Source: a bacterium (GTDB lineage: Bacteria; Hydrothermota; Tepidihabitantia; SM23-42; JAOAFX01). From it: a DNA stretch of 64,000 nucleotides. The position numbers and the translations under genes were made by a program. Below are positions 20,704 to 39,763 of the stretch, piece by piece; the first letter of the stretch is position 1, and each line of letters begins with the position of its first letter. The notes below the pieces were generated by a model. That model was given only the letters and a program-made list of their open reading frames with translations. It was not told the DNA's origin and did no database searches. The stretch is from positions 1 to 64,000 of the forward strand of contig DASVHD010000047.1 in the NCBI GenBank assembly GCA_036382775.1, in the 5' to 3' direction.

Positions 20704-20737
20704 TTACTGACTACGGTTTGCCGCTTACAGTTCGCGG

Positions 20738-23378: not shown

Positions 23379-23395
23379 GACTGGTTTTAGTACCC

Positions 23396-26499: not shown

Positions 26500-27306
26500 A
26501 TGAGGAAAATGCTTTTACTGATTATCGCCCTGCTGGTCAGCATAAGCTGCAGCAGTAGGGTAAATCTGTACGTCGAATGCGATGTCGAACGAGGACAGAC
26601 CTGGGACGATACATTTTCGGGAAGCCGGGGGGGAGACATATTTTCGGATCCAGTACTCGAGGAAATGACCGCGACCATTAACGATGACACGATGGAGGTC
26701 GATCTGCCCGATCCGGGCAGCTATCATCACTACGCGTATTTCTGGGATGAGGATACGATACCACCGGATGCCGGGTCAGAACACGAATTCAATATCCAGA
26801 CCGATGTGGGCAACGCGTCCGCGACCGTCACCGTGCCTGGTGAATTCGATATAACGGCACCCCTTGAGGACGACAGTATTCCGATCGACGCGGCTTTGGA
26901 CATAACTTGGGAAGCATCGGACGGAGCGGACTGGTATGCGGTCTGGTTAAGATATTTCTGGACCGGTGATAGTAAGGATACCACTGTATATGTCGATAAT
27001 ACTGCATGGACAGCTCCTGCGGACTGGATCGACGTCGATGGCACCATCTATGTCTATGTATACGCCGGCGACGGACCACGGTTTGAAGCGGGAGAAGCTG
27101 GGAATATCGAAGGCGCTAAGGGTTTCTGCGTCGCCACGAACTATCGGGCGAACCGGGTGATCGTAGGAGCCGGATACTTGGCACCAAAACAGTCGAAATT
27201 TGAAACTCAGAGAATATCTTCCAAGGATTTTTACCGGGCTTATATCAAGGAAATGTCAAAATACAGCTCGGAAGCCGCGGAAATGCTCGAGTATCTGGAA
27301 TTTTAA
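26500..27306 (+). CDS. Lipoprotein of unknown function, tandem copy 1
   Basis: A 268-residue protein with a lipobox-type signal (LLVSISC near residue 17). An all-beta-looking acidic body follows, with WDDTFSG, TINDDTMEVDLP and DITAPLEDDSIPIDAA. The later part (ITWEASDGADWYAVWL) resembles a fibronectin-III or Ig-like strand pattern. The C-terminus SSKDFYRAYIKEMSKYSSEAAEMLEYLEF is helical. No known family is recognised. It is about 70 percent similar to the next gene, with a stretch of over 40 residues in the middle identical between the two. Confidence 0.8.
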   Translation: MRKMLLLIIALLVSISCSSRVNLYVECDVERGQTWDDTFSGSRGGDIFSDPVLEEMTATINDDTMEVDLPDPGSYHHYAYFWDEDTIPPDAGSEHEFNIQTDVGNASATVTVPGEFDITAPLEDDSIPIDAALDITWEASDGADWYAVWLRYFWTGDSKDTTVYVDNTAWTAPADWIDVDGTIYVYVYAGDGPRFEAGEAGNIEGAKGFCVATNYRANRVIVGAGYLAPKQSKFETQRISSKDFYRAYIKEMSKYSSEAAEMLEYLEF

Positions 27307-27329
27307 CCAGTTAAAATAAAGGAGGAGGC

Positions 27330-28133
27330 ATGAGGAAAGCGCTTTTACTGGCCGTAGCCTTGCTGCTCGTCGCGAGTTGCAGCAGTAAGGTGAATCTGTT
27401 CGTCGAAGGCTATATCGAACGTTATCAGACCTGGAGCGATACGTTTTGGGGAGGTCGATCTGGAGATGTCTTGTCGGATCCGATACTTGAGGAAATGACC
27501 GTGACCATCAACGATGACACGATGGAGGTCGACCTGCCAGGACTAAACAGCTATAATCATGATGCGCGTTTTTGGGATGAAGATACCATACCGCCAGATG
27601 CTGGGTCAGAACACGAATTCAATATCCAGACCGATGTCGGCAACGCGTCCGCGACCGTCACCGTGCCCGGTGAATTCGATATTACGGCACCCCTCGAGGA
27701 CGATAGCATTCCGGTCGACGCGGCTTATGATATTGCCTGGGAAGCTTCGGAAGGAGCGGACTGGTACATGGTTCTGATATATTATTCCTGGAGCGGAGAT
27801 TACAAAGACACATTGGTCTACGTCAACGTCGATTCAACCACGTGGACTATCCCCGCGAATTGGATCAGTGAAGACGGGGAGATGTCGTTTTATGTCTATG
27901 CCGGTGACGGGCCGCAGATCGAAGTTGGTGCCGCCGGGAATATAAAGGGCGGAAAGGGTTTCTGCATCGCCACGAATGCCCGGGCAAACCATATAATTGT
28001 CGGGAATCCGGTCTTCACGGACTCTAGAAATGAATCCCATCGAATGTCTTCAAAGGATTTTTACCGGGCTTACATAAAGGAAATGTCCAAATACAGCTTG
28101 GAAGCCGCTGAAATGCTAGAGTACCTGGAATAA
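27330..28133 (+). CDS. Lipoprotein of unknown function, tandem copy 2
   Basis: A 267-residue paralog of the preceding gene, starting 23 bp after it with its own AAAGGAGGAGG. Lipobox LLLVASC, the same conserved middle (from TIPPDAGSEHEF to TAPLEDDSIP) and the same helical C-terminus. The parts before and after the conserved middle have diverged. The protein is presumably anchored in a membrane facing the periplasm or cell surface. Function unknown. Confidence 0.8.
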   Translation: MRKALLLAVALLLVASCSSKVNLFVEGYIERYQTWSDTFWGGRSGDVLSDPILEEMTVTINDDTMEVDLPGLNSYNHDARFWDEDTIPPDAGSEHEFNIQTDVGNASATVTVPGEFDITAPLEDDSIPVDAAYDIAWEASEGADWYMVLIYYSWSGDYKDTLVYVNVDSTTWTIPANWISEDGEMSFYVYAGDGPQIEVGAAGNIKGGKGFCIATNARANHIIVGNPVFTDSRNESHRMSSKDFYRAYIKEMSKYSLEAAEMLEYLE

Positions 28134-28273: not shown

Positions 28274-28301
28274 GGTAATCATAATGTCTATTATCAGACG
28301 T
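28274..28301 (+). other. dif-like attachment site at left end (attL candidate)
   Basis: GGTAATCATAA, TGTCTA, TTATCAGACGT reads as an 11-6-11 Xer site. The E. coli dif site is GGTGCGCATAA, TGTATA, TTATGTTAAAT. The match covers 8 of 11, 5 of 6 and 6 of 11 positions, and the inner CATAA...TTATC near-palindrome is kept. The identity shared with the right-hand repeat starts exactly at the first base of the 6-bp centre (28285). Assignment as an attachment site is inference. Confidence 0.5.
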
Positions 28302-28385
28302 TGGCAGTTGCCAATGGAATAGGCCCCCTTGCAGCCAAAACGGGTGTTTAAGGCGAGATTCCCCAAAAGGTGAGGGTTTATGTAG
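28285..28385 (+). repeat. Left flanking direct repeat of the element
   Basis: 101 bp, collinear with 39663-39763 without net gaps. The first 26 bp are identical and roughly 73 of 101 positions match overall, ending in TATGTAG in both. Inside, TTGGC-AGTT-GCCAA forms a small stem that stays pairable through G-T pairs in the right copy. No gene is seen in 28188-28593. Confidence 0.85.
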
Positions 28386-28459
28386 GCCATTAGAGAATAA
28401 ACCACTACAGGGTAGTGAATCACGAGAGCAGCCCTCAAAGTTAGTTGCTGCTCGAAAGC

Positions 28460-28500
28460 AAAAAAGCCGATCATTAACTGAGGAATGGTCGGCTTTTTTA
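28460..28500 (+). terminator. Strong terminator inside the left end
   Basis: AAAAAAGCCGATCATT and AATGGTCGGCTTTTTT form a 16-bp stem with an 8-nt loop, T-rich on both strands. It lies 75 bp after the repeat block. A hairpin terminator also follows the right repeat at a similar distance (32 bp). Confidence 0.85.
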
Positions 28501-28593
28501 TTTGGTAAACTCCAAAAACCGCCATGCTATGATATTGCCAGCTTGATTGAAATGCGTCCTGGTGAAAATGGTGATGGGAGTTTTTAAAAAAAC

Positions 28594-29148
28594 ATGGGAA
28601 AGATAATATTGGACCTATGCGGCGGTACCGGAGCCTGGTCAAAACCTTATTTAGAGGCCGGCTATGATGTGCAAAATATTACATTGCCGGATTATGATGT
28701 CAGAACTTATAAAGTCCCAGAGAATGTCTACGGAATACTCGCAGGTCCCCCCTGCACGATATTTTCTAAAGCCCGGCCAATGATCTCACGAGACAGAAAT
28801 TTTGCCGGCGCAATGACAATAGTTGAGGCCTGCCTGAAGATAATCTGGGCAGCTCGCATTTCTGGAAGTTTGCAATTTTGGGCCCTGGAGAATCCGGCGA
28901 CCGGTTATTCACGGCAATTCTTAGGTCACCCGTGTTTTGTTTTTCAGCCGGTTGAGTTCGGGGATCCATGGACGAAGATGACGGCACTCTGGGGATATTT
29001 TCATCGACCGCGGAAAATTCACCCGGTCAAAAAAATCCGAAGGATCGGCAGTGGATATCCGCAAAAAGTCAATCAGTTTAAAGATTCAACCAGGCGTTCG
29101 ATTACGCCGGCGAATTTCGCAAAAGCATTTTTTAAGGCGAACCCATAA
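28594..29148 (+). CDS. Small C5-cytosine DNA methyltransferase-like protein
   Basis: A 184-residue protein with the C5-methyltransferase core motifs. Motif I is ILDLCGGTGAWSKPYLEAGY, motif IV is AGPPCTIFS with the catalytic cysteine, and motif VI is the variant ENP rather than ENV. It is less than half the length of restriction-type enzymes and lacks an obvious target-recognition domain, as in several phage-encoded short versions. It is the first gene of the element and could protect the element DNA. GGGAG lies 14 nt upstream of the ATG. Activity is likely but not proven. Confidence 0.75.
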   Translation: MGKIILDLCGGTGAWSKPYLEAGYDVQNITLPDYDVRTYKVPENVYGILAGPPCTIFSKARPMISRDRNFAGAMTIVEACLKIIWAARISGSLQFWALENPATGYSRQFLGHPCFVFQPVEFGDPWTKMTALWGYFHRPRKIHPVKKIRRIGSGYPQKVNQFKDSTRRSITPANFAKAFFKANP

Positions 29149-29160
29149 AAGGAGGTAATC

Positions 29161-29304
29161 ATGGTTAGAACAATGCGTACCGATGGTCATATCGGCAGCC
29201 GCATAAAGCGGAAGTACGGAAAGATCGGAGCTCCGAGATCTGCCAAGCGCAGACGCTGGCTCAAAAAAATCAGGCGTCATCACAGACGCCACAGACGGAG
29301 ATAA
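29161..29304 (+). CDS. Very basic 47-residue protein, possible DNA-condensing peptide
   Basis: A short frame with an excellent AAAGGAGGTAATC ribosome site, starting MVRTMRTDGHIGSRIKRK and ending IRRHHRRHRRR. About half of the residues are Arg, Lys or His. It starts 12 bp after the methyltransferase and ends 2 bp before the next gene. Small Arg-rich peptides in viruses often bind packaged nucleic acid, so a virion DNA-binding role is possible; this is inference from composition only. Confidence 0.65.
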   Translation: MVRTMRTDGHIGSRIKRKYGKIGAPRSAKRRRWLKKIRRHHRRHRRR

Positions 29305-29306
29305 TC

Positions 29307-29495
29307 GTGGACCCCGGGAAAGAAGATTGCCCTTGCTGTCCTCTTTGTTTTGCTAATCCCGGGCCTGAGGGTATCAGTCTGCGCTGCGAGGGGAATAAAT
29401 GCGCCTGGTGGGTTAAATCATTTGAGGCGTGCGCACTGAAAAGCATAGCGGTAACTCTATACAATATTCTGTGTCTCAAAAGTGAAAAAAAATAG
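29307..29495 (+). CDS. Small zinc-ribbon protein of the element
   Basis: 62 residues from GTG 29307. CPCCPLC near the start and RCEGNKCAWW in the middle form two cysteine pairs of a zinc ribbon, followed by a hydrophobic C-terminal helix. The gene overlaps the next by 14 bp. The GTG has only a poor ribosome site, but coupling to the gene just upstream would explain that. Function unknown. Confidence 0.5.
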   Translation: MDPGKEDCPCCPLCFANPGPEGISLRCEGNKCAWWVKSFEACALKSIAVTLYNILCLKSEKK

Positions 29496-29718
29496 CGAGA
29501 TCTCCATTATTCCGATTCCAAATAGCCGGCAGCAATGTCAAGAGATCTTCCTGGTAAAGGGACGAAGGGCGGAGCGTTGCCTGAATCGAGCGGTCTACCG
29601 GATCCAATGGTCCTCGGGCGGCGGTAAAGCAAGATCGATTAGGCTGGTATGCCATAAGCATATCGATATTTACCGCTTCCTGAGGTCCTATCTACGGCCT
29701 AATACTGTATTAACTTGA
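29482..29718 (+). CDS. Hypothetical small protein of the element
   Basis: 78 residues from GTG 29482. Three cysteines and a histidine pair (QQCQEIF, AERCLNRAVYRIQW, LVCHKHID) suggest metal binding of the kind seen in small phage proteins where C...C and CxKH hold zinc. No family is recognised. It lies between the zinc-ribbon gene and rep. Confidence 0.5.
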   Translation: MKKNSEISIIPIPNSRQQCQEIFLVKGRRAERCLNRAVYRIQWSSGGGKARSIRLVCHKHIDIYRFLRSYLRPNTVLT

Positions 29719-29754
29719 ACTACGGAACAAGACTTACAATGGAAGAAAAAACTA

Positions 29755-30720
29755 ATGGAATTACAGACTAAAATTGATTACTCCAAAGTCTCGGATCTAG
29801 TCAAAAGTTACCAGGTGAAGAGTGCTCGGGAGCGGGAAGCATGTCCGAATACCAGCCGGACCATCTATACCAGGACCGATTGCAGCTGTGGGCATGCCTT
29901 TGTTAGGATCAATTCCGTCAGCTGCAAGAAAGAGATCTGTCCGGTATGTGGTCAAAAGTACAGCGCGTTACATAATCAAAGGATGGCGCGCTGGCTGCCT
30001 AAGATCCTCTGGATGCTTGACCAGGGTTATTATATCGGTTATCTGGTCGTTACGCTCCCCCCTGAGTACTGGGTCCTCGATAAAGTTTTCCTGAGAGCGT
30101 TTAGACGCTATGTAGTGCGTAAACTCAAGCGCTATGGTATCAAGTACGGTAAGGTGCGCTTCCACTGGGCCGGCGACAAGGGCGGTAAGTACTTCCCCCA
30201 TCTCAATATCCTGATCGCTACCGATGGCTACCTGGATTGGATCGAGGACAAAAAAGACCCGGTCACCGATAAGGTCATTAAAAAAGGGTTCAAAAGTGAA
30301 TTTGCCGAATGGTTAAAATATCCCGGGACTCCCGTAGTGCATTACAAATATAAAAAAGACATCGGATGGGTCATGCATAAGGTTGAATACGTTACGCGGC
30401 CGACATTGAACTTGATCAATGACGATTTGTTCAGTGATCACCATAAAAAGCAAATATGGAATGACGTTGTAAAAGGGTTTATGAACGATGTGGAGATCGG
30501 CAAGCCGCAGAAAATTGATAAGGATGTCGACTACTGGATCCAAAAAGGCTTAACAAGCATGGGTGATCAGAATTTCAAGCTTTTCAGCCTTACCCTTAAT
30601 CGCTGTCCACACTGTCATAAGCCATTAAAATGGCACTACTGCAAGGGAGAACACGAGGCCCTGGAAGGATCTATGTGGAGTAATGACCTTAATAACGAGT
30701 ATACCGAGTTGATATTTTAA
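29755..30720 (+). CDS. Rolling-circle-type replication initiator (Rep)
   Basis: A 321-residue protein. The N-terminus has a zinc-binding region (CSCGHAF, then CKKEICPVCGQKY), common in phage and transposon Rep proteins. VVTLPPEYW and KVRFHWAGDKGGKYFPHLNIL follow; PHLN would be the metal-binding HUH-type motif with the second histidine replaced by asparagine. HKVEYVTRP near residue 227 carries the likely catalytic tyrosine. A second zinc pair, CPHCHKPLKWHYCKGEH, ends the protein. Such enzymes nick one strand at the origin and stay attached through tyrosine. It is the largest gene of the element. The exact Rep family is uncertain. Confidence 0.72.
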   Translation: MELQTKIDYSKVSDLVKSYQVKSAREREACPNTSRTIYTRTDCSCGHAFVRINSVSCKKEICPVCGQKYSALHNQRMARWLPKILWMLDQGYYIGYLVVTLPPEYWVLDKVFLRAFRRYVVRKLKRYGIKYGKVRFHWAGDKGGKYFPHLNILIATDGYLDWIEDKKDPVTDKVIKKGFKSEFAEWLKYPGTPVVHYKYKKDIGWVMHKVEYVTRPTLNLINDDLFSDHHKKQIWNDVVKGFMNDVEIGKPQKIDKDVDYWIQKGLTSMGDQNFKLFSLTLNRCPHCHKPLKWHYCKGEHEALEGSMWSNDLNNEYTELIF

Positions 30721-30734
30721 ATTGGAGGCAAAAC

Positions 30735-31064
30735 ATGAATATAACAGTAGAACAGGCAATCAATATCGTAACTGTCAACAGCCGGTCGGCAGTCATCCGT
30801 GAACTTGGTCAGATCAGGACTCACGCGGATATTATCGAGGACGAACTCAGGGACAAAAATCTGATCAATCTCACGGACCAGCAGCGCGACGAAAAATATC
30901 GGCTGTTGATCAAAGCCCTGTCCAAGATCTTTGCAACGTGCGATCATATCAAGCAGGACTGCCGCGCCTTGTACGAAATCCTGGAGAAGGCCTTCCCTGA
31001 TGTCGCGCTGAATGGCGGAGTGTTGGATATCAAAGAGCCGGAGGCTGATCGTGGCGGTAATTGA
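30735..31064 (+). CDS. Hypothetical helical protein of the element
   Basis: A 109-residue, mostly helical, acidic protein (DIIEDELRDKNLINLTDQQRD, LIKALSKIFATCDHIKQ). TTGGAGG precedes the ATG and the gene follows rep by 14 bp. I do not recognise it. Its position after rep suggests a replication accessory role, which is speculative. Confidence 0.6.
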   Translation: MNITVEQAINIVTVNSRSAVIRELGQIRTHADIIEDELRDKNLINLTDQQRDEKYRLLIKALSKIFATCDHIKQDCRALYEILEKAFPDVALNGGVLDIKEPEADRGGN

Positions 31065-31407
31065 AAGAATCAAACCGCAGGTCTCCCCTGCTATTGAAGT
31101 CGATAGAGTCGACGAGGAATACCAAAGCAAGCAGCTCAAGGCTGGAATTTTGAAAACCTTGCGATGGTTAGTCAGGGAATCACGATCGACCATGCTGATC
31201 GATACGAAGGTCAAAAGTAATTCAGTCGATGCTAAAGACCTTTTTGTAATTGTGATCTACCCTCTTGATAAGTCACTGCTCGATATCTTTTGTAAGCTGA
31301 CCGGATCATTCTTAACTATGGCCCTTGGGATCTATGACAAGCGGATCCCCGCGCCCTGGGACGCTCAGCCGAAGCTGTCATCGACCATCATTAAACCTGG
31401 AGGATAA
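31051..31407 (+). CDS. Hypothetical protein of the element
   Basis: The GTG at 31051 is chosen because CGGAGG lies 6 nt upstream; an earlier ATG at 31012 has no such site. It gives a 118-residue protein overlapping the previous gene by 14 bp. Alternating beta strands and helices (TMLIDTKVKSNS, DLFVIVIYPLDKSLLDIFC) suggest a small alpha-beta domain. No family is recognised. Confidence 0.55.
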   Translation: MAVIERIKPQVSPAIEVDRVDEEYQSKQLKAGILKTLRWLVRESRSTMLIDTKVKSNSVDAKDLFVIVIYPLDKSLLDIFCKLTGSFLTMALGIYDKRIPAPWDAQPKLSSTIIKPGG

Positions 31408-31608
31408 ATGACCACACTTTATAAGTGCGTTCATGCTGATCGCTGTACAGATCCGTACTGCATTCATCAGCGTTATCACACGGAAAGAGACGACTGCCAA
31501 CTGAACCGCGCGTGTGATTACTCTAAGCATGTAGTATGCAGGGTCGCGCGCAGCAACATCGAAAACCTTAAGCCGCCGGCAGGGAAGCTCCGCATATGTC
31601 CCGCGTGA
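31408..31608 (+). CDS. Small cysteine-rich protein of the element
   Basis: 66 residues starting directly after the previous stop, with TGGAGG before the ATG. Cysteines in CVHADRCTDPYCIHQRYH and CQLNRACDYSKHVVC can form one or two small zinc knots. Function unknown; nucleic-acid binding is a possibility. Confidence 0.55.
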   Translation: MTTLYKCVHADRCTDPYCIHQRYHTERDDCQLNRACDYSKHVVCRVARSNIENLKPPAGKLRICPA

Positions 31609-31805
31609 TGGTGCATGTGTTAAGGGATCATTACGAAAATCTGTGGCGCTTGATTACGCGCTATGAGATCCTGCTGCGGCACAAAGGTTATTCGCGGTCC
31701 GATCTGGATGAGCAGCGGCTGCGCGTCTTCGAATCGAAGCCCTGCAGAATAGATTTTGTAAAGGCAAAGCCGAGCCTGAATCGGCACAGCAAAAAAGCGA
31801 GGTAA
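31596..31805 (+). CDS. Hypothetical basic protein of the element
   Basis: 69 residues, overlapping the previous gene by 13 bp. A basic, probably helical protein (HVLRDHYENLWRLITRYEILL, SDLDEQRLRVFESK). A weak GGGAAGCTCCGCAT site precedes the ATG. No family is recognised. Confidence 0.5.
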   Translation: MSRVMVHVLRDHYENLWRLITRYEILLRHKGYSRSDLDEQRLRVFESKPCRIDFVKAKPSLNRHSKKAR

Positions 31806-31809
31806 TAAT

Positions 31810-32058
31810 ATGCCAAAAATGCTATCAATCGCAAAGGTCAAGGAAAACGTCCTCAAGCTCATACAGGTCTACGGCGATTTTGTCAAGGCCATGGTGAGGA
31901 TGAACCCGGGGATCGAGCTGAAATTCGACGTCTACTTCTCCAGCAAACCGGAAGGCGATCATCTGTTTACGTTCGACATTCCCTTTGTCAAGGCGTACCT
32001 GATCATCAAGGTTTCGAGCTCGCACGGCATCCTGAAGTGCGTTCACATCGACCTGTAA
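31810..32058 (+). CDS. Hypothetical protein of the element
   Basis: 82 residues: a helical N-terminus (IAKVKENVLKLIQVYGDF) followed by beta strands (ELKFDVYFSS, FDIPFVKAYLIIKVSS). The start is 4 bp after the previous stop. No family is recognised. Compact order and spacing support it as a gene. Confidence 0.5.
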   Translation: MPKMLSIAKVKENVLKLIQVYGDFVKAMVRMNPGIELKFDVYFSSKPEGDHLFTFDIPFVKAYLIIKVSSSHGILKCVHIDL

Positions 32059-32075
32059 CCGACGCGGGAACGGGC

Positions 32076-32309
32076 GTGAAGAAAAGCGGCGGCGGCAGTG
32101 GACCTTACCAGGGACTTACTGAAAGTCAACGTAAGATCATTGCCGCCGTCGAGGATTCACTTACATGCCCTGGATTCCGCAAAAAATTCTTTTCGCTATT
32201 CGGCCATTATTTTAGGTGCTGGCATTGTTTTAAGATAATGTGCCGATTCATAGGAGGCATGATATGGTTAACAATCAAGAAGTGGCTGACGAAAAATCCG
32301 GAGCTGTAA
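32076..32309 (+). CDS. Hypothetical protein of the element with hydrophobic segment
   Basis: The GTG at 32076 is taken as the start, giving 77 residues: KKSGGGSGPYQGLTESQRKI, then a Cys/aromatic-rich hydrophobic stretch (LFGHYFRCWHCFKIMC) and WLTIKKWLTKNPEL. A frame opening at 32037 is an alternative. It overlaps the next gene by 46 bp, which weakens the case. Confidence 0.4.
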   Translation: MKKSGGGSGPYQGLTESQRKIIAAVEDSLTCPGFRKKFFSLFGHYFRCWHCFKIMCRFIGGMIWLTIKKWLTKNPEL

Positions 32310-32794
32310 TACAAACGTCGCAGCCTGGGGATCCGGCGGGGAAAGCCGAACCGGTCGAACCGGCAACATCGGCGGTGATTTCCAAGACGTTAAATGAAGC
32401 GGCGGACCAGGTGTCGTCTGAGCCGGCATTGTTAGCTGAGCCAGGGGGGTCAGCCGCGGAAAAGCCGCTGGTGCCGGTACCTGAACAACCGCCGGCAAAG
32501 AAACCGCCAGCTGTGTCTGAGGATCTGATAAAGGATTATACCGAAGCGCTGGTGGCAACACTGGACGTCGTTAACGGCCAGGTATGCTCGGTGATCGCGC
32601 GCCAAATGGACCACGATTTTTCATTCAAACAGTCCCAGCATGACAAGCTGGTGATGGTCTGGACACCGGTCGTGCGGATGTTCTATGACAAGATTCCGGT
32701 CCTGGTGGTCGCCGGATTTACGACCGTTACGGTCCTGGGCGGAAATTTCATCGCGGCGCGTCAGCTGCGCGATGAGAAGGATCAGAAAAAATGA
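32264..32794 (+). CDS. Pro/Ala-rich protein with C-terminal membrane helix
   Basis: The ATG at 32264 follows AGGAGG by 6 nt and gives 176 residues. The first half is a low-complexity Pro/Ala/Glu linker (PVPEQPPAKKPPAVSEDL). The second half has a helical region and a membrane helix IPVLVVAGFTTVTVLGGNF near the end with a charged tail (RDEKDQKK). It could be a membrane-anchored virion or assembly protein. Not recognised by family. Confidence 0.6.
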   Translation: MVNNQEVADEKSGAVIQTSQPGDPAGKAEPVEPATSAVISKTLNEAADQVSSEPALLAEPGGSAAEKPLVPVPEQPPAKKPPAVSEDLIKDYTEALVATLDVVNGQVCSVIARQMDHDFSFKQSQHDKLVMVWTPVVRMFYDKIPVLVVAGFTTVTVLGGNFIAARQLRDEKDQKK

Positions 32795-33036
32795 CCGAGA
32801 ACCGCCAGGCTATGATATTGCCGGCATCGTCAAGATCGATCCTGATCGAACTGGTGAGCCGATTTTTTCAATCCAGGCATAAAATGGCAGAGCTGCTCAA
32901 AAGTCTATATACTAAATCGATTCGGATTCCTCGAGTAGAGCATATATACTTTCCGGCGGCGATCGCCGAAGTATATATACAAGCCGGCAGGATCCCGAGT
33001 ATATATACTTCAGGATCTGCGTCGACTGAGACGTAA
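32791..33036 (+). CDS. Hypothetical protein overlapping the palindrome cluster
   Basis: 81 residues starting as ATGA on the previous stop. The first 40 residues look like a normal helical protein (SILIELVSRFFQSRHKMAELL). The second half is encoded by four copies of the AGTATATATACT palindrome that fall in different reading frames. This end may therefore be a DNA-level control region that is merely translated. Confidence 0.4.
   Translation: MTENRQAMILPASSRSILIELVSRFFQSRHKMAELLKSLYTKSIRIPRVEHIYFPAAIAEVYIQAGRIPSIYTSGSASTET
32902..33009 (+). promoter_or_regulatory. Four copies of the palindrome AGTATATATACT
   Basis: Copies lie at 32902-32913 (one mismatch), 32939-32950 (one mismatch), 32970-32981 (one mismatch) and 32998-33009 (perfect). 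Start-to-start spacing is 37, 31 and 28 bp. A second palindrome, CGGCGATCGCCG (32957-32968), lies between copies two and three. Two more copies occur at 38585-38620. They are candidate binding sites for an element-encoded regulator or for the replication initiator. Confidence 0.65.
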
Positions 33037-33076
33037 ATTATATATGATTAAGCTTTTTCGAGTGCGAGGAGAGACC

Positions 33077-33292
33077 ATGAAGAAAAAAACAAAAACGAAC
33101 AAGAATGACCAGGTAGATGATGGGATGGTCCTGGAGAATCCGCAGCATAAGGACCATTATGCTTGCTGGTGCGGTCGCTGGGTGTCGCTGTACATATTTC
33201 ACGCTCATAAATGGTTAAAGGTCGGCGTGTTTTGTAATCGCTGCGGCGCGGTCGCGCTCTATAAAAAATACAATAAGAAGGACAATTCCTGA
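33077..33292 (+). CDS. Small zinc-ribbon protein of the element
   Basis: The ATG at 33077 follows GAGGAGAGACC. 71 residues: a Lys-rich start (KKKTKTNKNDQ), then CWCGRWVSLYIFHAHKW and CNRCGAVALYKKY, a four-cysteine zinc ribbon. It overlaps the next start by one base. Function unknown. Confidence 0.6.
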   Translation: MKKKTKTNKNDQVDDGMVLENPQHKDHYACWCGRWVSLYIFHAHKWLKVGVFCNRCGAVALYKKYNKKDNS

Positions 33293-33552
33293 TGAAGTAC
33301 TCTATTTTTAGCATGCCCTATTTTTTCTATCGCGGGCTCTGCGCGATCGGTGCATCGATCCGGCGTTACTATTTTAACTATCGTACTGAGCGTTACTTTG
33401 CGCGCTGCCGGGAGGACATCACCAGGCTCCACTGGTACATGATCAAATGTCATTACTCGCGCCAGGACCGCCGGCGAATCGCCAGGCAGCTGATGAAATA
33501 TACCATGTCATTGAGCGGCTTCGATTTCAAGGAAGGCAAGGTGCAACCATGA
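33292..33552 (+). CDS. Basic, aromatic-rich hypothetical protein of the element
   Basis: 86 residues rich in Arg, Tyr and Phe (MPYFFYRGLCAIGASIRRYY, HYSRQDRRRIARQLMKY). The start overlaps the previous stop and the end overlaps the ATPase start as ATGA, so the three genes are translationally coupled. No family is recognised. Confidence 0.55.
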   Translation: MKYSIFSMPYFFYRGLCAIGASIRRYYFNYRTERYFARCREDITRLHWYMIKCHYSRQDRRRIARQLMKYTMSLSGFDFKEGKVQP

Positions 33553-34094
33553 CAAGACCTCGTATGTTCTTTTTGATCATCGGCACGACGCACACCGGAA
33601 AGACGTACTTTATCCGGGACCTGATAAAACTATCGAAGCAGAAGGTCCTGGTCTATGACGTGAACCGCGAAGAAAAGTACGCTCGCCTGCCGGTAGTCAA
33701 CGTGCAAAAACTGGCATCGTTTCATAAGGGCAAATATCGCGTAATTCAGCGGCAGCCGGACCAGGTAATCGAATACATAATTAACGACTATCGTAACGGA
33801 CTGCTTATCCTGGACGATGTGGACCGCTATTTATCGGTTACTTCGGTCGCATGGAATGACCTGATTATCGGTCATCGACACATGGGTCTGGACCTGATCG
33901 CGGTATTTCACTCATTAAACCGTACCTTGCCGATATTTTACGAGAACTGTACCGATATCATTCTCTTCAAAACTCAGGAACAGCCTGACAAGAGCATAAA
34001 TAAGCTGCCTAAATCGGACGATGTACTAAGGGCGTTTTACCAGGTTGAAAGCAATAAGGATCCGCATTACAAAGTACGGATCCGCTGCCGATAG
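33549..34094 (+). CDS. Short FtsK/HerA- or Zot-type ATPase, probable genome-packaging ATPase
   Basis: A 181-residue P-loop protein. Walker A is IIGTTHTGKTYFIRDL, Walker B is GLLILDDVDRYL, and GHRHMGLDLIAVFHSLNRT follows, corresponding to the sensor region of the HerA-FtsK/A32 and Zot groups. There is no membrane helix, whereas inovirus Zot proteins usually have one. The small size matches packaging ATPases of tailless membrane-containing phages such as PM2 and PRD1. The ATG at 33549 overlaps the previous stop. A terminator follows the gene, closing the first transcription unit. Confidence 0.75.
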   Translation: MTRPRMFFLIIGTTHTGKTYFIRDLIKLSKQKVLVYDVNREEKYARLPVVNVQKLASFHKGKYRVIQRQPDQVIEYIINDYRNGLLILDDVDRYLSVTSVAWNDLIIGHRHMGLDLIAVFHSLNRTLPIFYENCTDIILFKTQEQPDKSINKLPKSDDVLRAFYQVESNKDPHYKVRIRCR

Positions 34095-34105
34095 TCAAGC
34101 GGTGC

Positions 34106-34131
34106 AAAAGGGATAATTATCCCTTATTTTT
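34106..34131 (+). terminator. Terminator after the ATPase gene
   Basis: AAGGGATAATTATCCCTT is a perfect palindrome followed by ATTTTTA. A TATAAT box at 34167-34172 downstream may start the late unit, but no good -35 box is visible because the upstream DNA is C-rich. Confidence 0.8.
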
Positions 34132-34248
34132 ACCTGGTCTACTCCACCCCCCTCCCCCCTTTTTGTTATAATGTACCATAATGGATATTTATACTTTGAG
34201 ATATCCTGCGGGCCTGGCATGGGGTCAGGCCCTAAAGAGAGGTGCTTT

Positions 34249-34362
34249 ATGAAGGGATGGTTTGGGGATTTTTTGCTGACTGCTTTCGCGGTGCTTGTGG
34301 CATTGATACTCTATCACATATCCGCGCCGATAGTCAGTGGCTTGTTCAAGCCAAAAAAGTAA
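34249..34362 (+). CDS. 37-residue single-helix membrane peptide
   Basis: The ATG at 34249 follows AGAGAGG by 6 nt. The peptide is MKGWFGDF, a hydrophobic helix (LLTAFAVLVALILYHI) and a basic end (GLFKPKK). It is the first gene after the terminator and lies 12 bp before the first capsid candidate. Small single-helix proteins of this kind occur in the inner membrane of tailless phages and as coat subunits of filamentous phages. Confidence 0.6.
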   Translation: MKGWFGDFLLTAFAVLVALILYHISAPIVSGLFKPKK

Positions 34363-34374
34363 AGGGGGTTACCT

Positions 34375-35067
34375 ATGCCAAGCAATCTATTATCTGAACT
34401 CGAAAGAATCGAAGAGCTGGCTCGGGGTGAATCCTTCGCGTACGATGATCCTGCTGATACGGTGCTTTCCCTTGCTGGCCCACTGGCCGATATCGAGATC
34501 GATCAGCAATTCGGGTTCGATACTCAATCGAGTAAATCGCCGTCCGGTACGACCTATGGCCTACGGATCGTCAATGGGGTGGCGGGGGCAAGGACCGTCA
34601 AACTCTTTGGTTTCGAAGGCTTTAAATACACTGATGCCAACGTTACAATCACGGCCCAGGGCGGTTATGGAACGTATGAAAAGTTCTGTTACTCGAACTG
34701 GTTCAATCCGGCCGAGATTGTATCGGTAAGGATCACCACCACATCAGCTCAGATCGACCAGATGTCGCTGAAATGGGTGCGGGACAGTGTCTTCGGTAAG
34801 CTCGATTCCAATGTTCTTTCGATGTCTTCGTATCGGACTGAGTCGGACTATCAGACTGGAGTCATCACGATTCCGTTCCGGTTTCTGCTGGCGTTCGATG
34901 CGTATATTGAGACGACGATCCTGGTCTCGACGACCGTTGACTTGCTATTCTTCATGGGTGCGCGTCTCGATCCGGCGAAAAAGATCGAAGCCATGAGATC
35001 GGCGCCGCAGATAATGTCGAAGTCCGGCCGAAGGCCAGTGCTAAGTAAATCTGGTGGCGCAGTTTAA
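34375..35067 (+). CDS. Beta-rich protein of 230 residues, capsid candidate 1
   Basis: AAAGGGGGTTACCT precedes the ATG. The body is predominantly beta (VKLFGFEGFKYTDANVTITA, SVRITTTSAQIDQMSLKWV, QTGVITIPFRFLLAF), with no signal peptide or membrane helix. The C-terminus is basic (MSKSGRRPVLSKSGG). The gene lies directly after the ATPase and small membrane peptide, where major capsid genes of double- or single-jelly-roll phages are often found. I do not recognise the family; the capsid assignment rests on size, composition and place. Confidence 0.5.
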   Translation: MPSNLLSELERIEELARGESFAYDDPADTVLSLAGPLADIEIDQQFGFDTQSSKSPSGTTYGLRIVNGVAGARTVKLFGFEGFKYTDANVTITAQGGYGTYEKFCYSNWFNPAEIVSVRITTTSAQIDQMSLKWVRDSVFGKLDSNVLSMSSYRTESDYQTGVITIPFRFLLAFDAYIETTILVSTTVDLLFFMGARLDPAKKIEAMRSAPQIMSKSGRRPVLSKSGGAV

Positions 35068-35080
35068 AAGGCGGTGATCC

Positions 35081-35521
35081 ATGAGAGCAGTTGATAGGAT
35101 CATCGAAAAACTACCAGGCTATGCTGAGATGCGCGGTCAGGTATCCGACGAGGCGATCATTGCTCACGCGGCTGCCGTCTATCCTACTACGACCGCAATT
35201 GCCGTCGCTGAAGCCGAGGTCGAATCCGAAGGATTCGGCTTGTTCGGGATCGGCGATATTTTCAATGTGGCAAAAAACGCTATTAAAGGCGTGGTTGGAG
35301 CTGGGAAGGGTGTGATCAAGGCGTTTTCAAAAACGCATGACGTGGGGCTAAAAATCACGCCTAAAGAACCGCAGCCTACCGCTGCGCAGGTCGCGGCAGC
35401 GGTCGCAAAAGAAAAGGATAAGTCTAAGGCTAAACCTTCCTGGATCCTTCCGGCTATTATCGCGGTTGTCGTTGCGGTAGTGATCGTCCTGTTTGTTTCG
35501 TTCACCGGCAAAGCGAAGTGA
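35081..35521 (+). CDS. Gly/Ala-rich membrane protein of the element
   Basis: 146 residues, preceded by AAGGCGGTGATCC. The middle has FGLFGIGDIFNVAKNAIKG, an amphipathic Gly-rich segment. The C-terminus has the strong membrane helix WILPAIIAVVVAVVIVLFV with a short basic end. This resembles minor membrane proteins in virions with an internal lipid layer. Not recognised by family. Confidence 0.6.
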   Translation: MRAVDRIIEKLPGYAEMRGQVSDEAIIAHAAAVYPTTTAIAVAEAEVESEGFGLFGIGDIFNVAKNAIKGVVGAGKGVIKAFSKTHDVGLKITPKEPQPTAAQVAAAVAKEKDKSKAKPSWILPAIIAVVVAVVIVLFVSFTGKAK

Positions 35522-35526
35522 TGTAA

Positions 35527-35766
35527 ATGGTGTACCAGCATACGCTTACGCTCAAAGGTCCGGCGGACGTAATCGTTTCCTGCCCTGATAATGGCGTGGT
35601 ATGGTGTAAAGGCAATAACGGATTGCAGTACTCAATACCGCATCGCTGTCATCAGGGCAGGACGCTTCTTAAGCTCCCGCGACCGCCCAAAATCCTTAAG
35701 ATCATCGCTACAAAAAGATTCACGGTGGAAGTCAAACCTTTCAATGCCCGTCGCCGTCATGCTTAG
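35527..35766 (+). CDS. Small beta-rich hypothetical protein of the element
   Basis: 79 residues with beta-type sequence (HTLTLKGPADVIVSC, TKRFTVEVKPFNARRRHA). The ribosome site is poor and coupling to the gene 5 bp upstream is likely. Its end overlaps the next gene by 8 bp. No family is recognised. Confidence 0.5.
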   Translation: MVYQHTLTLKGPADVIVSCPDNGVVWCKGNNGLQYSIPHRCHQGRTLLKLPRPPKILKIIATKRFTVEVKPFNARRRHA

Positions 35767-36082
35767 ATATGTCATTGAGCCATCGGACCGGATCGTCAAG
35801 ATATTCCCTAAGCGTGAGCTCGTGGTCATCGATCCATCGTTTTATACGATTTACAATTTTAACATCCGCGTATTTATCCTGCTGCACGAGTTGGCTCATT
35901 TAGATAGGTCTAACGAATATGAGGCCGACTATCAAGCGTTTCGTATGTACCGCGATGCCGGCTATCCTTTGCGCGACTGCATTTTTGCCCTTACCCGCAT
36001 ATTGCCCCTGCCTAAAAATTATGAGCGTGTCTCTCGCCTATTCCGAAGGATTATCGATGAATATCCTGAGCTTCTTAATTGA
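35759..36082 (+). CDS. HExxH metallopeptidase-like protein of the element
   Basis: The ATG at 35759 overlaps the previous stop; an in-frame ATG at 35744 is an alternative. The 107-residue protein contains LLHELAHLDRSNEYEADYQAF. HELAH is a zinc-binding HExxH, and EYEAD downstream supplies the usual third glutamate of a gluzincin. The region C-terminal to it is short. It may be a small wall- or protein-cleaving enzyme used at entry, exit or maturation. The gene overlaps the transglycosylase by 26 bp. Confidence 0.65.
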   Translation: MLRYVIEPSDRIVKIFPKRELVVIDPSFYTIYNFNIRVFILLHELAHLDRSNEYEADYQAFRMYRDAGYPLRDCIFALTRILPLPKNYERVSRLFRRIIDEYPELLN

Positions 36083-36512
36083 TCGGAATTGGTATATGCC
36101 GCTGATCAAGCCCAAAGATTCCCTGCTGCCCTATTATGAATACATTGCCGAGCAGCTTGGCATGCCGATCGAGCTGGTGATCGCTCATGCACAATTAGAA
36201 AGCCAGCAGTATTATCTTGCCAGGGGTAAAGCAGGGGAATACGGGCTGTGGCAGTTTCTACCATCGACCTGGAAAGGGCTGATGGGCAGCGCGAACTGGA
36301 AAAGCATCGATAACCAATGCGCGGCCTATATCATACATACGCGCAATGTTATCAATCGCTATGGACTCAATTTACACAACTCCGCGCATGTTACAGTTTA
36401 CTTATGGGTGTGGAATGCCGGCGGCGGAAATTACGAGAAGAATTTTATGCCTGTATCAACCCGTGAATATATCCGCGTGATTAAACAATATCAAGCGCAA
36501 GTCGAAGTGTAG
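36057..36512 (+). CDS. Lytic transglycosylase (SLT type)
   Basis: The ATG at 36057 has AAGGA 7 nt upstream. The 151-residue protein has the SLT core: VIAHAQLESQQYY with the catalytic glutamate, then GEYGLWQFLPSTWKGLMG and VTVYLWVWNAGGGNYEK. Such enzymes cut the glycan strands of peptidoglycan, here likely for virion entry or release. No signal peptide is seen, which fits a virion-borne enzyme. Confidence 0.85.
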   Translation: MNILSFLIDRNWYMPLIKPKDSLLPYYEYIAEQLGMPIELVIAHAQLESQQYYLARGKAGEYGLWQFLPSTWKGLMGSANWKSIDNQCAAYIIHTRNVINRYGLNLHNSAHVTVYLWVWNAGGGNYEKNFMPVSTREYIRVIKQYQAQVEV

Positions 36513-36522
36513 GAGATATGAA

Positions 36523-36891
36523 ATGAACAAGGACGATGTAAAAAAGCTCGCGTATTCAATATGGGATTCTAAACTCCCTGTAAATTATAAGATGGAATTA
36601 TTTGGCGGCCTTAAAAAACTATATGATACATGGGATCAGTATTCGGATCAGGGGCGTCGAGAAGTCGTTCAGTTGGTCAAAGATCGTTTGGAATGGATCA
36701 AAACGCATGATCCGCAAGTTATTATTACCCAATTAATTTTTGATCTAATCGACATTATTTTAAAACCAATATCATTTGGGCTGTGGCTTTTGAGACACAT
36801 AAAAGAAGTCGTATTATTTGTAGTGGTGGCAGCCTTGATCGCCGGCGGTGCTTACTACGGGATCAAGCTTCGAAAGGTAGTCAAAAAATGA
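36523..36891 (+). CDS. Membrane-anchored hypothetical protein of the element
   Basis: 122 residues with AGGAGAT before the ATG. A helical soluble part (REVVQLVKDRLEWIKTHDPQ) is followed by hydrophobic segments, including LLRHIKEVVLFVVVAALIAG, and a basic end (KLRKVVKK). Function unknown. Its stop overlaps the next start as ATGA. Confidence 0.6.
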   Translation: MNKDDVKKLAYSIWDSKLPVNYKMELFGGLKKLYDTWDQYSDQGRREVVQLVKDRLEWIKTHDPQVIITQLIFDLIDIILKPISFGLWLLRHIKEVVLFVVVAALIAGGAYYGIKLRKVVKK

Positions 36892-37424
36892 TAAGAGCAT
36901 TCCGAAGGACGCAGACGCAAGATCGAGACGAAAAAACAGATCCGCCGATAGTGCCTTCGGAGAGTCTTCAGTCGGCGGAAAAACCCATCGAAAACATCCC
37001 GGGTCCGCCTGATCCAAAGCCTGAACCTGAACCTGAAAAATCACCGGCAAAGAAAGAATCTAAACTTGATTATTTGCTGATCGTTGAAAAAATATCCGAC
37101 AACCAGGTCAAAATCACATTCGCCGGCCGTCCGTCCGTGATTACGCCGGTTGAAAAACACTGGGACATAATCCGAGACTACTATAAATATAAAATTTTGC
37201 CAACCGATCCCGAGCCGACTGAGTACTACAAACTTAAAGACTCTCCTGGAAGGCCGCCGAAGGAATGGTGGAATAGCAAGGTGCGCTGTCTGCGCCGTGA
37301 ACATCCTGGTTATTCGGGCAAGCGGATCAGTAAGGTCGCCGGTGAAATTTGGGAAGGATACTCGGTCAACACAAAACGCAGGTTGATATCAAGAGTGGAA
37401 CGTAAGAAAAGGAGTAAACGATGA
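36888..37424 (+). CDS. Hypothetical protein with Pro/Glu linker and basic C-terminus
   Basis: 178 residues from the ATG overlapping the previous stop. Residues 1-60 are a disordered Pro/Glu linker (PPDPKPEPEPEKSPAKKE). A short beta region (YLLIVEKISDNQVKITFAG) and a Cys-containing basic end (RCLRREHPGYSGKRISKVAG) follow. The C-terminal pattern resembles helix-turn-helix-like DNA-binding segments, but I cannot place it. Confidence 0.5.
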   Translation: MIRAFRRTQTQDRDEKTDPPIVPSESLQSAEKPIENIPGPPDPKPEPEPEKSPAKKESKLDYLLIVEKISDNQVKITFAGRPSVITPVEKHWDIIRDYYKYKILPTDPEPTEYYKLKDSPGRPPKEWWNSKVRCLRREHPGYSGKRISKVAGEIWEGYSVNTKRRLISRVERKKRSKR

Positions 37425-38110
37425 TCTATATTATCAAACGCAGTTTCATGGACAATGCATTGACGACGGATATGCTGCCGAGGGGGTTTCGTTATTTCAG
37501 TTTTTTGACTGACGGCGGTATCAATCCTGAGTGTAATTTCGCCAATGAAAATTTGACGCTCGAATTGATTGCGGTCGGTAACGCAGCGGGACCAGTATAT
37601 CCGATTAATCAGGAAGTACTTAATCTCACCGCGGGCGTTCTGTGCGATATGCTTCGCATAACGAACCTACAAATGGGCATGAGTCCACTGACGCTTGAAA
37701 ATGGATACGGGAATATCATCGTGGTCTGCTCGGATGAGCCGCTTGGGGGTAATTTTATCACAAAGAGCAATGCGCATATTGAAGAAGCACTGACAATTCC
37801 GGCAGCCACTACGAAAACCTATTGGCTCGGCAGGGACCGGGTAGACGCTGCTGACATTTTACTGCTGCCTTATGTTCCGCCGCGTTATAACTATGCGATG
37901 GTATTGTTGCAATACGGCGGCGGAACGATAGCGAGTCTTCAATGGGCACCTTTCGCTAAAACGTTAAATGTGTTCGGTTCAACAGTGAATGCCGGCGATA
38001 TTACAAGCGTCAAAACGTCGGATCGCGTAAGGATAACAATACAAAACACTCATGTAGCGGATCCAGCGAATGCGGTCGTCTATGCAGTCTTTTGCGAGGG
38101 CGGCGCGTAA
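37421..38110 (+). CDS. Beta-rich protein of 229 residues, capsid candidate 2
   Basis: AAAGGAGTAAACG precedes the ATG; an in-frame ATG at 37448 is an alternative that may match mature proteins better. The body is beta-rich with many Asn/Thr (CNFANENLTLELIAVGNAAG, NVFGSTVNAGDITSVKTSDR, RITIQNTHVADPANAVVYAV), no membrane helix and no signal. Size and composition match capsid candidate 1, so the two could be paired capsid proteins, or one capsid and one spike/vertex protein. No family is recognised. Confidence 0.5.
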   Translation: MIYIIKRSFMDNALTTDMLPRGFRYFSFLTDGGINPECNFANENLTLELIAVGNAAGPVYPINQEVLNLTAGVLCDMLRITNLQMGMSPLTLENGYGNIIVVCSDEPLGGNFITKSNAHIEEALTIPAATTKTYWLGRDRVDAADILLLPYVPPRYNYAMVLLQYGGGTIASLQWAPFAKTLNVFGSTVNAGDITSVKTSDRVRITIQNTHVADPANAVVYAVFCEGGA

Positions 38111-38301
38111 TGAATGTAAATAAATTGCTAAACATACTAATAATTATAATCTGTTTAGTATCAATGCTCGAAGGCCTGGCATTGATTAAAGGCGTGGATG
38201 GTGCGGCACTATCCGCCATGATCGGTTTATTTTGTGCTATCGCGGGGATCATTGGGACGGTGCTGAGATACAAGATCAAGCATCATCACGATCAGAAATA
38301 G
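38110..38301 (+). CDS. Two-helix membrane protein, holin-like size
   Basis: The ATG at 38110 overlaps the previous stop by one base. 63 residues with two membrane helices (LLNILIIIICLVSMLEGLA, MIGLFCAIAGIIGTVL) and a charged tail KIKHHHDQK. This is the size and layout of a class II holin, but small virion membrane proteins look alike. Confidence 0.6.
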   Translation: MNVNKLLNILIIIICLVSMLEGLALIKGVDGAALSAMIGLFCAIAGIIGTVLRYKIKHHHDQK

Positions 38302-38309
38302 GAGCAACC

Positions 38310-38567
38310 ATGAAAAAATGGCTTTTGATACTTATCGGCATTTTGATCGGCATGCTGGCGGAAGTAATTCTGGCGGTACTGGTAATTACTGTTTTTAATA
38401 AAAATCTGAGCGTGGAACTTAACAAAAAAAGCAGCTGGTACGGTATCCTAAAACCGATTAACGTCTTTCCGATCAGAATCCCGCTGCGGAAGATCTTTGC
38501 TTCGTTCCTGGGTCTAAAAGGTCCCGCCGGTATTCAAGAGAATCCGCTGGAGCTTAAGCTCAAATAG
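38310..38567 (+). CDS. Single-helix membrane protein of the element
   Basis: AGGAGCAACC precedes the ATG at 38310. 85 residues: KKW, then an N-terminal membrane helix (LILIGILIGMLAEVILAVLV), followed by a basic soluble part (NVFPIRIPLRKIFASFLGLK). It is the last gene before the second pair of palindromes. Not recognised. Confidence 0.6.
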   Translation: MKKWLLILIGILIGMLAEVILAVLVITVFNKNLSVELNKKSSWYGILKPINVFPIRIPLRKIFASFLGLKGPAGIQENPLELKLK

Positions 38568-38584
38568 ATCTTCCTGCAGGAAAA

Positions 38585-38620
38585 AGTATATATACTTCAC
38601 CATGCAAAAGTATATATATT
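38585..38620 (+). promoter_or_regulatory. Two further copies of AGTATATATACT
   Basis: 38585-38596 is perfect and 38609-38620 is AGTATATATATT (one change). They sit 24 bp apart, upstream of the promoter at 38644-38671, where a bound protein could control the lipoprotein and regulator genes. Confidence 0.65.
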
Positions 38621-38643
38621 TCGAAGATATCCAATTTTACCCC

Positions 38644-38671
38644 TTGACAATTCCGTTTTTGTTCTTAAACT
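38644..38671 (+). promoter_or_regulatory. Promoter of the element lipoprotein gene
   Basis: TTGACA (38644-38649), 16-bp spacer, TAAACT (38666-38671). AAGGGAGG lies before the ATG at 38714. Confidence 0.6.
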
Positions 38672-38713
38672 GTACACGTGAGCAACAAAGAATAAAATAA
38701 CAAGGGAGGATGT

Positions 38714-39148
38714 ATGAAATATATAATACCATTTGTCTTGCTCTTTTCTTTGTCATGTAAAGCCAATTTTACAATGGACACGTATGTCGATGAATTTATA
38801 AATATTGATGCGAAGGGTTACTATTTGAAAATTCTAACGCCGGAATCGGAACAGCAGAGCAAAGATTATTTTTTTGGTAAAATAGTTGTGAGCCCTGGAT
38901 GCAGTTTTGTGAGGGGTTCCGAGGAACGCGTAATCAATTGTTATTTGTTGGACGCTGATAATTATGAAGAATGGAAAAGCGGAAAGGATCCGTCGACAAG
39001 CATATTCAAAAAAATTGAAAAATCAGACATGACGATACCGATTACTGAATTGAATTGGGATGAGAATAAAAAATACTATTTTATAATTAGCAACAGGTTT
39101 TCGGAAATGAATAAATCGGTTCATTTGTATTTGATAAGGATCTATTAA
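38714..39148 (+). CDS. Element-encoded lipoprotein of unknown function
   Basis: A 144-residue protein with a short signal peptide ending in a lipobox-like FSLSC near residue 15, then a mostly beta mature part (KIVVSPGCSFVRG, KYYFIISNRFSEM). It is expressed from its own promoter behind two AGTATATATACT sites. A lipoprotein added to the host surface by an integrated element could block infection by related phages; this is a guess from lifestyle. It is lower in GC than its neighbours by eye. Confidence 0.65.
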   Translation: MKYIIPFVLLFSLSCKANFTMDTYVDEFINIDAKGYYLKILTPESEQQSKDYFFGKIVVSPGCSFVRGSEERVINCYLLDADNYEEWKSGKDPSTSIFKKIEKSDMTIPITELNWDENKKYYFIISNRFSEMNKSVHLYLIRIY

Positions 39149-39156
39149 ATGTCGAA

Positions 39157-39256
39157 AGCAACTCATAATTACCCAGGGGAAGCCAGGATACCAATCTTGG
39201 CAGGGCAGGTCGCTCCTGCCGTTATGAGTTGCTCACCTCCCCTGGGGAAAGGTGAG
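39157..39256 (+). other. Interleaved inverted repeats (pseudoknot-like or origin-like)
   Basis: AGCAACTCATAA (39157-39168) pairs perfectly with TTATGAGTTGCT (39222-39233). CCCAGGGG (39172-39179) can pair with CCCCTGGG (39239-39246), giving an interleaved A-B-A'-B' order. Between them GGCAGG/CCTGCC forms a hairpin. CTCACCT/AGGTGAG with CCCC/GGGG (39232-39256) is a competing hairpin. It could be a structured RNA, a terminator or a single-strand replication origin. Confidence 0.5.
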
Positions 39257-39303
39257 CTGATATGGAATATTTTAAACAAGGCGAAAAGTGGAGGCGGCCA
39301 CAA

Positions 39304-39627
39304 ATGAGCCGGGTCACAAGATATTTTAATATCCGCCTTAGAGATCTAATGGTCGAAAAAGGATTCAAGGCTGGGCAGCTGGCGATGATTACAAATGTTG
39401 CGCCGGCTTCGGTATCGCTTTGGATCAATGGCATTGAAATGCCGCCGGACGATATCCAGTGTCTGATCGCTATCTGGCTCGGTGTGTGCCGAGATGAGAT
39501 CTGGCAATTTAAAAAAGAATGTTTTAACGAAATTATTGAGCTTTCGAAACTTCACAAAGAACAGGTGCGGCTGGAGAAAAAGCTGGCCGGAAAATTACAG
39601 CTGCAAAATTCAAACGAGGATTTTTAG
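39304..39627 (+). CDS. Xre-type helix-turn-helix regulator of the element
   Basis: The ATG at 39304 has GGAGG 9 nt upstream; an in-frame ATG at 39262 with AAAGGTGA is an alternative. The 107-residue protein has an HTH_3-like fold: YFNIRLRDLMVEKGFKAGQL, then NVAPASVSLWINGIEMPPDD and IAIWLGVCRDEIWQF. A helical, coiled-coil-like tail follows. It is the last gene of the element and a candidate ligand of the AGTATATATACT sites. Confidence 0.72.
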   Translation: MSRVTRYFNIRLRDLMVEKGFKAGQLAMITNVAPASVSLWINGIEMPPDDIQCLIAIWLGVCRDEIWQFKKECFNEIIELSKLHKEQVRLEKKLAGKLQLQNSNEDF

Positions 39628-39651
39628 TGAACTCCTTTAATAAACTATTTC

Positions 39652-39679
39652 AATGACCTAACTGTCTATTATCAGACGT
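39652..39679 (+). other. Right-end recombination site (attR candidate)
   Basis: AATGACCTAAC, TGTCTA, TTATCAGACGT. The centre and right arm are identical to the left site, but the left arm differs completely. That is the pattern expected if Xer strand exchange joined a host left arm (28274-28284) and an element left arm at the two ends. Confidence 0.45.
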
Positions 39680-39763
39680 TGGCAGTTGTCGGCGAAATAG
39701 GCCATATTATAGCGGAAACGGGCTTTTGGGGCGTGATCTCCCCAAGACGGATAATCTATGTAG
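39663..39763 (+). repeat. Right flanking direct repeat of the element
   Basis: Counterpart of 28285-28385, same length and orientation. In a Xer model this copy would be the original chromosomal flank and the left copy would be element-borne. An inner palindrome, TTGGGG-CGTGATCT-CCCCAA, is present only here. Confidence 0.85.

Follow-up and report, generated by a model that had tools for sequence, protein, structure and literature searches.

The closest described counterparts of the locus reported here are tailless, membrane-containing phages of the PM2 plan (Vinavirales). In a survey of Vinavirales (pro)phages of three clades, three proteins were present throughout: the capsid protein, the ATPase and P1, a spike/penton protein (PMC9502842). 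In PM2, the gene of the ATPase (P9) is followed after 135 base pairs (bp) by P7 (34 amino acids, aa), after another 13 bp by the capsid gene P2, and after a further 13 bp by P3, whose product ends in a C-terminal membrane helix. The P7-capsid-P3 order is kept in Vibrio PE phages, autolykiviruses, Marinomonas phage YY and Jorvik, and P7 measures 34-38 aa in PM2, Jorvik, YY and the Vibrio PE phages. For Jorvik, the same synteny has been reported, with P2 as the most abundant virion protein (PMC10589892). A different architecture is found in P23-77, IN93, SNJ1 and SH1 (Helvetiavirae), which have single-jelly-roll capsid proteins encoded by two adjacent genes of unequal size (173/291 aa in P23-77, 158/239 aa in SNJ1 and 185/232 aa in SH1, with the same arrangement in IN93).

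We analyzed a 64,000-nucleotide stretch of contig DASVHD010000047.1 (positions 1 to 64,000, hereafter "the window") from a Hydrothermota genome (GCA_036382775.1), in which two open reading frames (ORFs) encoding proteins of 230 and 229 aa, hereafter protein 1 and protein 2, lie within an 11.4-kb putative provirus (28285-39688). A first-pass annotation had proposed these two proteins as candidates for a pair of capsid proteins that could be similar to that of P23-77. Here we favor, on balance and with modest confidence, a different reading, in which both ORFs are late genes of an integrated tailless virus with a membrane, built on the PM2/Jorvik plan, with protein 1 forming the shell and protein 2 more likely located at the spike or vertex.

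Protein 1 and its gene context

Both ORFs score as coding: with the codon usage of the host as reference, the annotated frame outscored each of the other five, and a purine-rich ribosome site precedes each gene. As initially described, neither product has a signal or membrane helix (maximum 19-residue hydropathy of 1.43 for protein 1 and 0.94 for protein 2), and both are located among small membrane proteins, for which this value reaches 2.3-3.2. The spacing around protein 1 closely follows that of PM2, with 155 bp between the ATPase gene and that of a 37-aa membrane peptide, 13 bp from there to protein 1, and 14 bp from protein 1 to a 146-aa protein with a C-terminal anchor, the latter being a candidate P3 equivalent by position and build. 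Two features of Vinavirales are thus found here, namely a small HerA/FtsK-type ATPase gene adjoining the capsid gene, and the ATPase-P7-capsid-P3 order in terms of position, size, and spacing.

This neighborhood is conserved in a second provirus. Across the 147 genomes of the phylum used for all phylum-wide comparisons, a further small ATPase of this type (pairwise E 2e-6) and a homologue of protein 1 (228 aa, 22% identity, pairwise E 4e-6, z 9.8) were each found only once, both on contig JAUQPS010000014.1 (hereafter L004), from another family, where the ATPase lies beside the homologue. In the L004 locus, the ATPase, on the opposite strand, is followed by a membrane protein, the homologue of protein 1 and a second membrane protein; next come two larger proteins and a metallopeptidase, then a candidate cell-wall hydrolase, directly after which the contig stops. 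This gene plan is that of YY and Jorvik. Adjoining the L004 provirus, we also observed an IS110-like transposase, recognized by eye (L004:6291-7379), and a tyrosine integrase (L004:7934-8446, Pfam Phage_integrase 1.5e-21).

By sequence, the window ATPase certainly belongs to the viral packaging ATPase family. Its closest reference virus protein in single-sequence comparisons was PM2 P9 (blastp E 5e-7, phmmer 1e-7 to 4e-7), which remained the top match after proteins from NO16, autolykivirus, Vibrio PE, Jorvik and YY were added, while matches to STIV (4e-4) and P23-77 (7e-4, full-length over 197 aa) were weaker. Profile comparison to PM2 P9 yielded a score of 48.7, against a maximum of 22.5 across 100 shuffles. 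When the window and L004 ATPases were combined into a two-sequence profile, the best match was to the P23-77/IN93 profile (9.8e-10), followed by Jorvik/YY (5.4e-9) and PM2 alone (2.9e-7), so that the preference for PM2 derives from single-sequence comparison and gene order, since profiles align P23-77/IN93 and Jorvik/YY equally well or better. A match to phrog_2666 ("terminase large subunit"), to which the SH1, P23-77 and SNJ1 ATPases match strongly, was rejected as proof of a P23-77-type ATPase, because matches in all 147 genomes and in all 14 controls identify it as a general HerA/FtsK profile.

For protein 1 itself, a two-sequence profile including the L004 homologue ranked the Vinavirales capsid profile first among capsid and other proteins. 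The score against this 12-protein profile was 32.6, having climbed from 27.9 once Jorvik and YY capsid proteins were included, and none of 200 column shuffles scored as high (mean 13.2, maximum 22.1). Capsid proteins of P23-77, SH1, SNJ1, halovirus, and FLiP all yielded background scores with the protein 1 profile. Of the two jelly rolls in Vinavirales capsid proteins, only the first is matched (E 1.6e-4). Since the match would end near the C-terminus of protein 1, and the ~75 residues at the N-terminus are too few for a second barrel, a single jelly roll is the likelier content; judging from length and match extent, we consider it reasonably probable that protein 1 holds only one, which would be unusual. 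Taken together, context and profiles point to PM2/Jorvik-type phages rather than P23-77, and we have good confidence that protein 1 is the major capsid protein.

Evidence on the folds is indirect. The AlphaFold model of protein 1 has a mean predicted local distance difference test (pLDDT) score of 45.9 and a predicted template modeling (pTM) score of 0.50, with about ten strands, while the single-sequence model of protein 2 was unusable (pLDDT 31). The initial description of both proteins as beta-rich is only weakly tested by these models. Using Foldseek, the weak protein 1 model was linked mostly to generic beta-sandwich/jelly-roll neighbors (nucleoplasmin, STMV coat), and its strand/helix pattern is compatible with a pairwise alignment to an autolykivirus-like capsid protein. 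Residue propensities of both proteins fall within the values of known jelly-roll capsid proteins, although this measure is non-discriminating.

Protein 2

The start codon (ATG) of protein 2 overlaps the stop of the preceding gene, and the ORF is found after the transglycosylase and two further genes, and before two small membrane proteins. Sequence searches of Pfam, PHROGs, NCBIfam, and PDB yielded nothing for either protein 1 or protein 2, nor did tblastn searches of phages and plasmids. Scans of viral contigs with both proteins, the Rep, the ATPase alignments, and the L004 proteins returned only Thermus phages, for the P23-77 ATPase. No homologue of protein 2 was found elsewhere in the L004 genome, with the contig end right after the hydrolase hiding what follows there. 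A 13-residue likeness (DI-L-P-VPP-Y) to a 333-aa membrane-anchored L004 protein was judged to be due to chance or a short motif.

Once the capsid protein and the ATPase are accounted for, the spike is the one universal protein left, and protein 2 is its most plausible candidate, since apart from protein 1 no other soluble product of the late operon exceeds 200 aa. The P1 proteins diverge strongly among themselves, and comparison with them yielded no profile match. From its context, we tentatively assign protein 2 as a spike/vertex protein, with slightly less than even confidence, and this role appears more likely than that of a second capsid protein. The proposal of two capsid candidates gained support for protein 1, from the place of its gene, its conservation in the L004 provirus and the profile match, but not for protein 2.

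The putative provirus and its other genes

The element is bracketed by a 26-bp perfect direct repeat (TGTCTATTATCAGACGTTGGCAGTTG), and similarity between the two copies extends further, to 77 of 110 bases. Allowing up to 3 mismatches, the repeat pattern occurs at only these two places in the phylum genomes. A XerCD dif site was considered but is not supported, as the repeat is absent from relatives of the same family. Ordinary bacterial genes lie outside both repeats, while the genes between them are co-directional, from a methyltransferase (28594) through Rep (29755) to a helix-turn-helix (HTH) repressor (39262), and include Rep, packaging ATPase, transglycosylase, and repressor genes. No integrase was recognized between the repeats, and integration may possibly be Xer-type or Rep-mediated. 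Overall, the element is probably a small tailless provirus, and probably represents a new group of such proviruses. On the host side, lipoprotein genes duplicated in tandem (26500-28133) adjoin the left insertion point, and a row of three related large secreted subtilisin-like proteases is found at 18001-25878.

The putative Rep begins with a zinc finger and resembles IS91 transposases and Rep_1, with further weak similarity to an S. thermophilus plasmid rep (E 0.03) and to SNJ1 RepA (pairwise E 0.004). SNJ1 RepA is itself reported to be IS91-like (reference list of PMC12642351). Between the methyltransferase and Rep, a short and very basic ORF (29161-29304, RSAKRRRWLKKIRRHHRRHRRR) possibly encodes a DNA-condensing virion peptide. 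The 184-aa protein upstream of the ATPase occupies the place of the Vinavirales Gp-h/PRD1 P10 assembly factor, and L004:10423-10971 (-) has the same build, but profile comparison with Gp-h proteins was negative and this assignment was rejected. The L004 gene found in the same relative place as the 107-aa HELAH protein (L004:14817-15236) matches Peptidase_M78 (1.9e-7), while no HELAH metallopeptidase-like gene is annotated in the PM2-like phages we looked at.

Table 1 Features of the putative provirus, with coordinates in the window.
Feature	Coordinates	Strand	Basis
Left 26-bp direct repeat, attL candidate	28285..28310	.	Exact repeat TGTCTATTATCAGACGTTGGCAGTTG
DNA methyltransferase-like protein, accessory gene	28594..29148	+	phrog_757 E 2e-26
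Putative rolling-circle replication initiator (HUH/IS91-like Rep)	29755..30720	+	Weak Pfam: Zn_Tnp_IS91 1.6e-4, Rep_1 0.04
184-aa protein with a Pro/Glu-rich linker before a hydrophobic/helical region close to the C-terminus	32240..32794	+	Position and composition only
Packaging ATPase, 181 aa, ORF open from 33447	33549..34094	+	PM2 P9 match
Membrane peptide of 37 aa with a single helix, equivalent to PM2 P7 in position and size	34249..34362	+	Hydropathy
Protein 1, 230 aa, major capsid protein candidate	34375..35067	+	Capsid slot after ATPase and P7-like peptide; L004 homologue; Vinavirales profile match
146-aa protein, Gly-rich amphipathic stretch, linker, C-terminal membrane helix	35081..35521	+	Hydropathy 3.2 at residue 122
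79-aa protein	35527..35766	+	
107-aa HELAH metallopeptidase-like protein	35759..36082	+	HELAH motif
Lytic transglycosylase	36057..36512	+	Pfam SLT 22.8 bits, cut-off 21.3
122-aa membrane protein	36523..36891	+	Hydropathy 2.31
178-aa basic protein, N-terminus Pro-rich	36888..37424	+	
Protein 2, 229 aa, spike/vertex candidate, alternatively second capsid protein	37421..38110	+	Role suggested by context
63-aa membrane protein	38110..38301	+	Hydropathy 2.54
85-aa membrane protein	38310..38567	+	Hydropathy 2.91
HTH repressor	39262..39627	+	phrog_3 5.8e-8, phrog_2328 1.5e-5
Right 26-bp direct repeat, attR candidate	39663..39688	.	Exact copy of left repeat

Discussion

Among described viruses, PM2 resembles the element in its P9 as the best relative of the ATPase, the ATPase-P7-P2-P3 order and spacing, a ~10-kb genome, and a rolling-circle-type replication protein. 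It differs in that P2 is a 269-aa double jelly roll, compared to 230 aa for protein 1, that its replication protein belongs to another family, and that P7, P3, and P1 have no sequence match in the element. Jorvik and YY share the prophage lifestyle, the P7-P2-P3 order, and a lytic transglycosylase in the late operon, and their ATPase is on the opposite strand, as in L004. However, their capsid proteins are 319-328 aa long, their spike gene comes before the transglycosylase whereas protein 2 comes after, and no similarity to Rep was seen. FLiP (Finnlakeviridae) also combines a small genome, a Rep, a capsid gene followed by a protein with a C-terminal membrane helix, and a lytic enzyme downstream, but its 311-aa capsid protein has no sequence match here and scores at background with the protein 1 profile. 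FLiP has no packaging ATPase (PMC5894146).

If the PM2/Jorvik plan applies, protein 1 would have one jelly roll as its core, related to the first of the two found in Vinavirales capsid proteins, and many copies would tile an icosahedral shell over an internal membrane. This membrane would carry small membrane proteins, including the 37-aa peptide, the 146-aa protein, and others. The rolling-circle-type Rep would copy the DNA and the small HerA/FtsK-type ATPase would pump the copies in, while opening of the cell wall during entry or exit would fall to the transglycosylase, and protein 2 would likelier serve as a vertex or spike than as a second capsid protein. Several observations weigh against this interpretation. 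An unrelated SH1 ORF reaches 30.4 with the same profile, so that the match of protein 1 should be seen as moderate; protein 1 alone scores 25.6 against the Vinavirales capsid profile, and the L004 homologue alone has no match. Protein 1 is also shorter than the Vinavirales capsid proteins to which it was compared (263-328 aa), and its structure model is of low confidence. In addition, protein 2 has no relatives in all sequence searches and no link to any spike, and the 37-aa, 146-aa, and 184-aa proteins have no sequence link to P7, P3, and Gp-h, respectively. The capsid profile test is however not very sensitive, because genuine remote double-jelly-roll proteins (PRD1, STIV, FLiP) also fail it.

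The initial proposal of a P23-77-type pair now appears improbable. A single jelly roll in protein 1 would make a partner useful, the ATPase match to P23-77 is full-length even if weaker, and the Rep is weakly similar to SNJ1 RepA, with a HerA/FtsK-type packaging ATPase and putatively single-jelly-roll capsid proteins as further points of likeness to Helvetiavirae. Yet neither protein has profile similarity to VP16, VP17, VP4, VP7 or the SNJ1 capsid proteins, the two have no mutual similarity, and PM2 better fits both the gene order and, in single-sequence comparison, the ATPase. Moreover, 2.35 kb and six genes separate protein 1 from protein 2, the six being five entirely new ORFs and the short 79-aa ORF. 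This gap, together with the near-equal size of the two proteins, is no sign of a P23-77-type pair, whose genes are neighbors of unequal size. A related scenario, in which a PM2-plan shell is assembled from separate single-jelly-roll proteins, with protein 1 as the first jelly roll of a Vinavirales capsid protein and protein 2 as the second, seems slightly less probable still.

Protein 1 could instead hold both jelly rolls in a compact form, which would make the element an ordinary, very divergent Vinavirales prophage. The gene slot, the profile match to the Vinavirales capsid family, and the roughly ten predicted strands all speak for this reading, which we nonetheless consider unlikely given the extent of the match and the short N-terminal remainder described above. 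We assign about the same low probability as for the P23-77-type pair to the scenario in which neither of the two is a capsid protein: protein 1 would then be a minor component of the virion or act in assembly, with the shell protein encoded elsewhere in the element or provided by a helper virus. Low model confidence for both proteins and the moderate profile score of protein 1 are consistent with such a scenario, and an element this small could be a satellite; on the other hand, the ATPase neighborhood is conserved in two proviruses of different families, and besides protein 2 no other late-region gene has the size of a capsid protein gene.

If the favored PM2/Jorvik-type reading is true, tailless membrane-containing phages of the PM2 plan would extend to a phylum of uncultured bacteria in which we found no such virus described, and would include a capsid protein with half the usual jelly-roll content. 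Should the shell be split between proteins 1 and 2, the element would stand between single- and double-jelly-roll viruses, either as a living intermediate or as the result of a secondary split. A single-jelly-roll capsid gene in a PM2-type operon would provide a concrete object with which to test how double-jelly-roll capsids arose from single ones.

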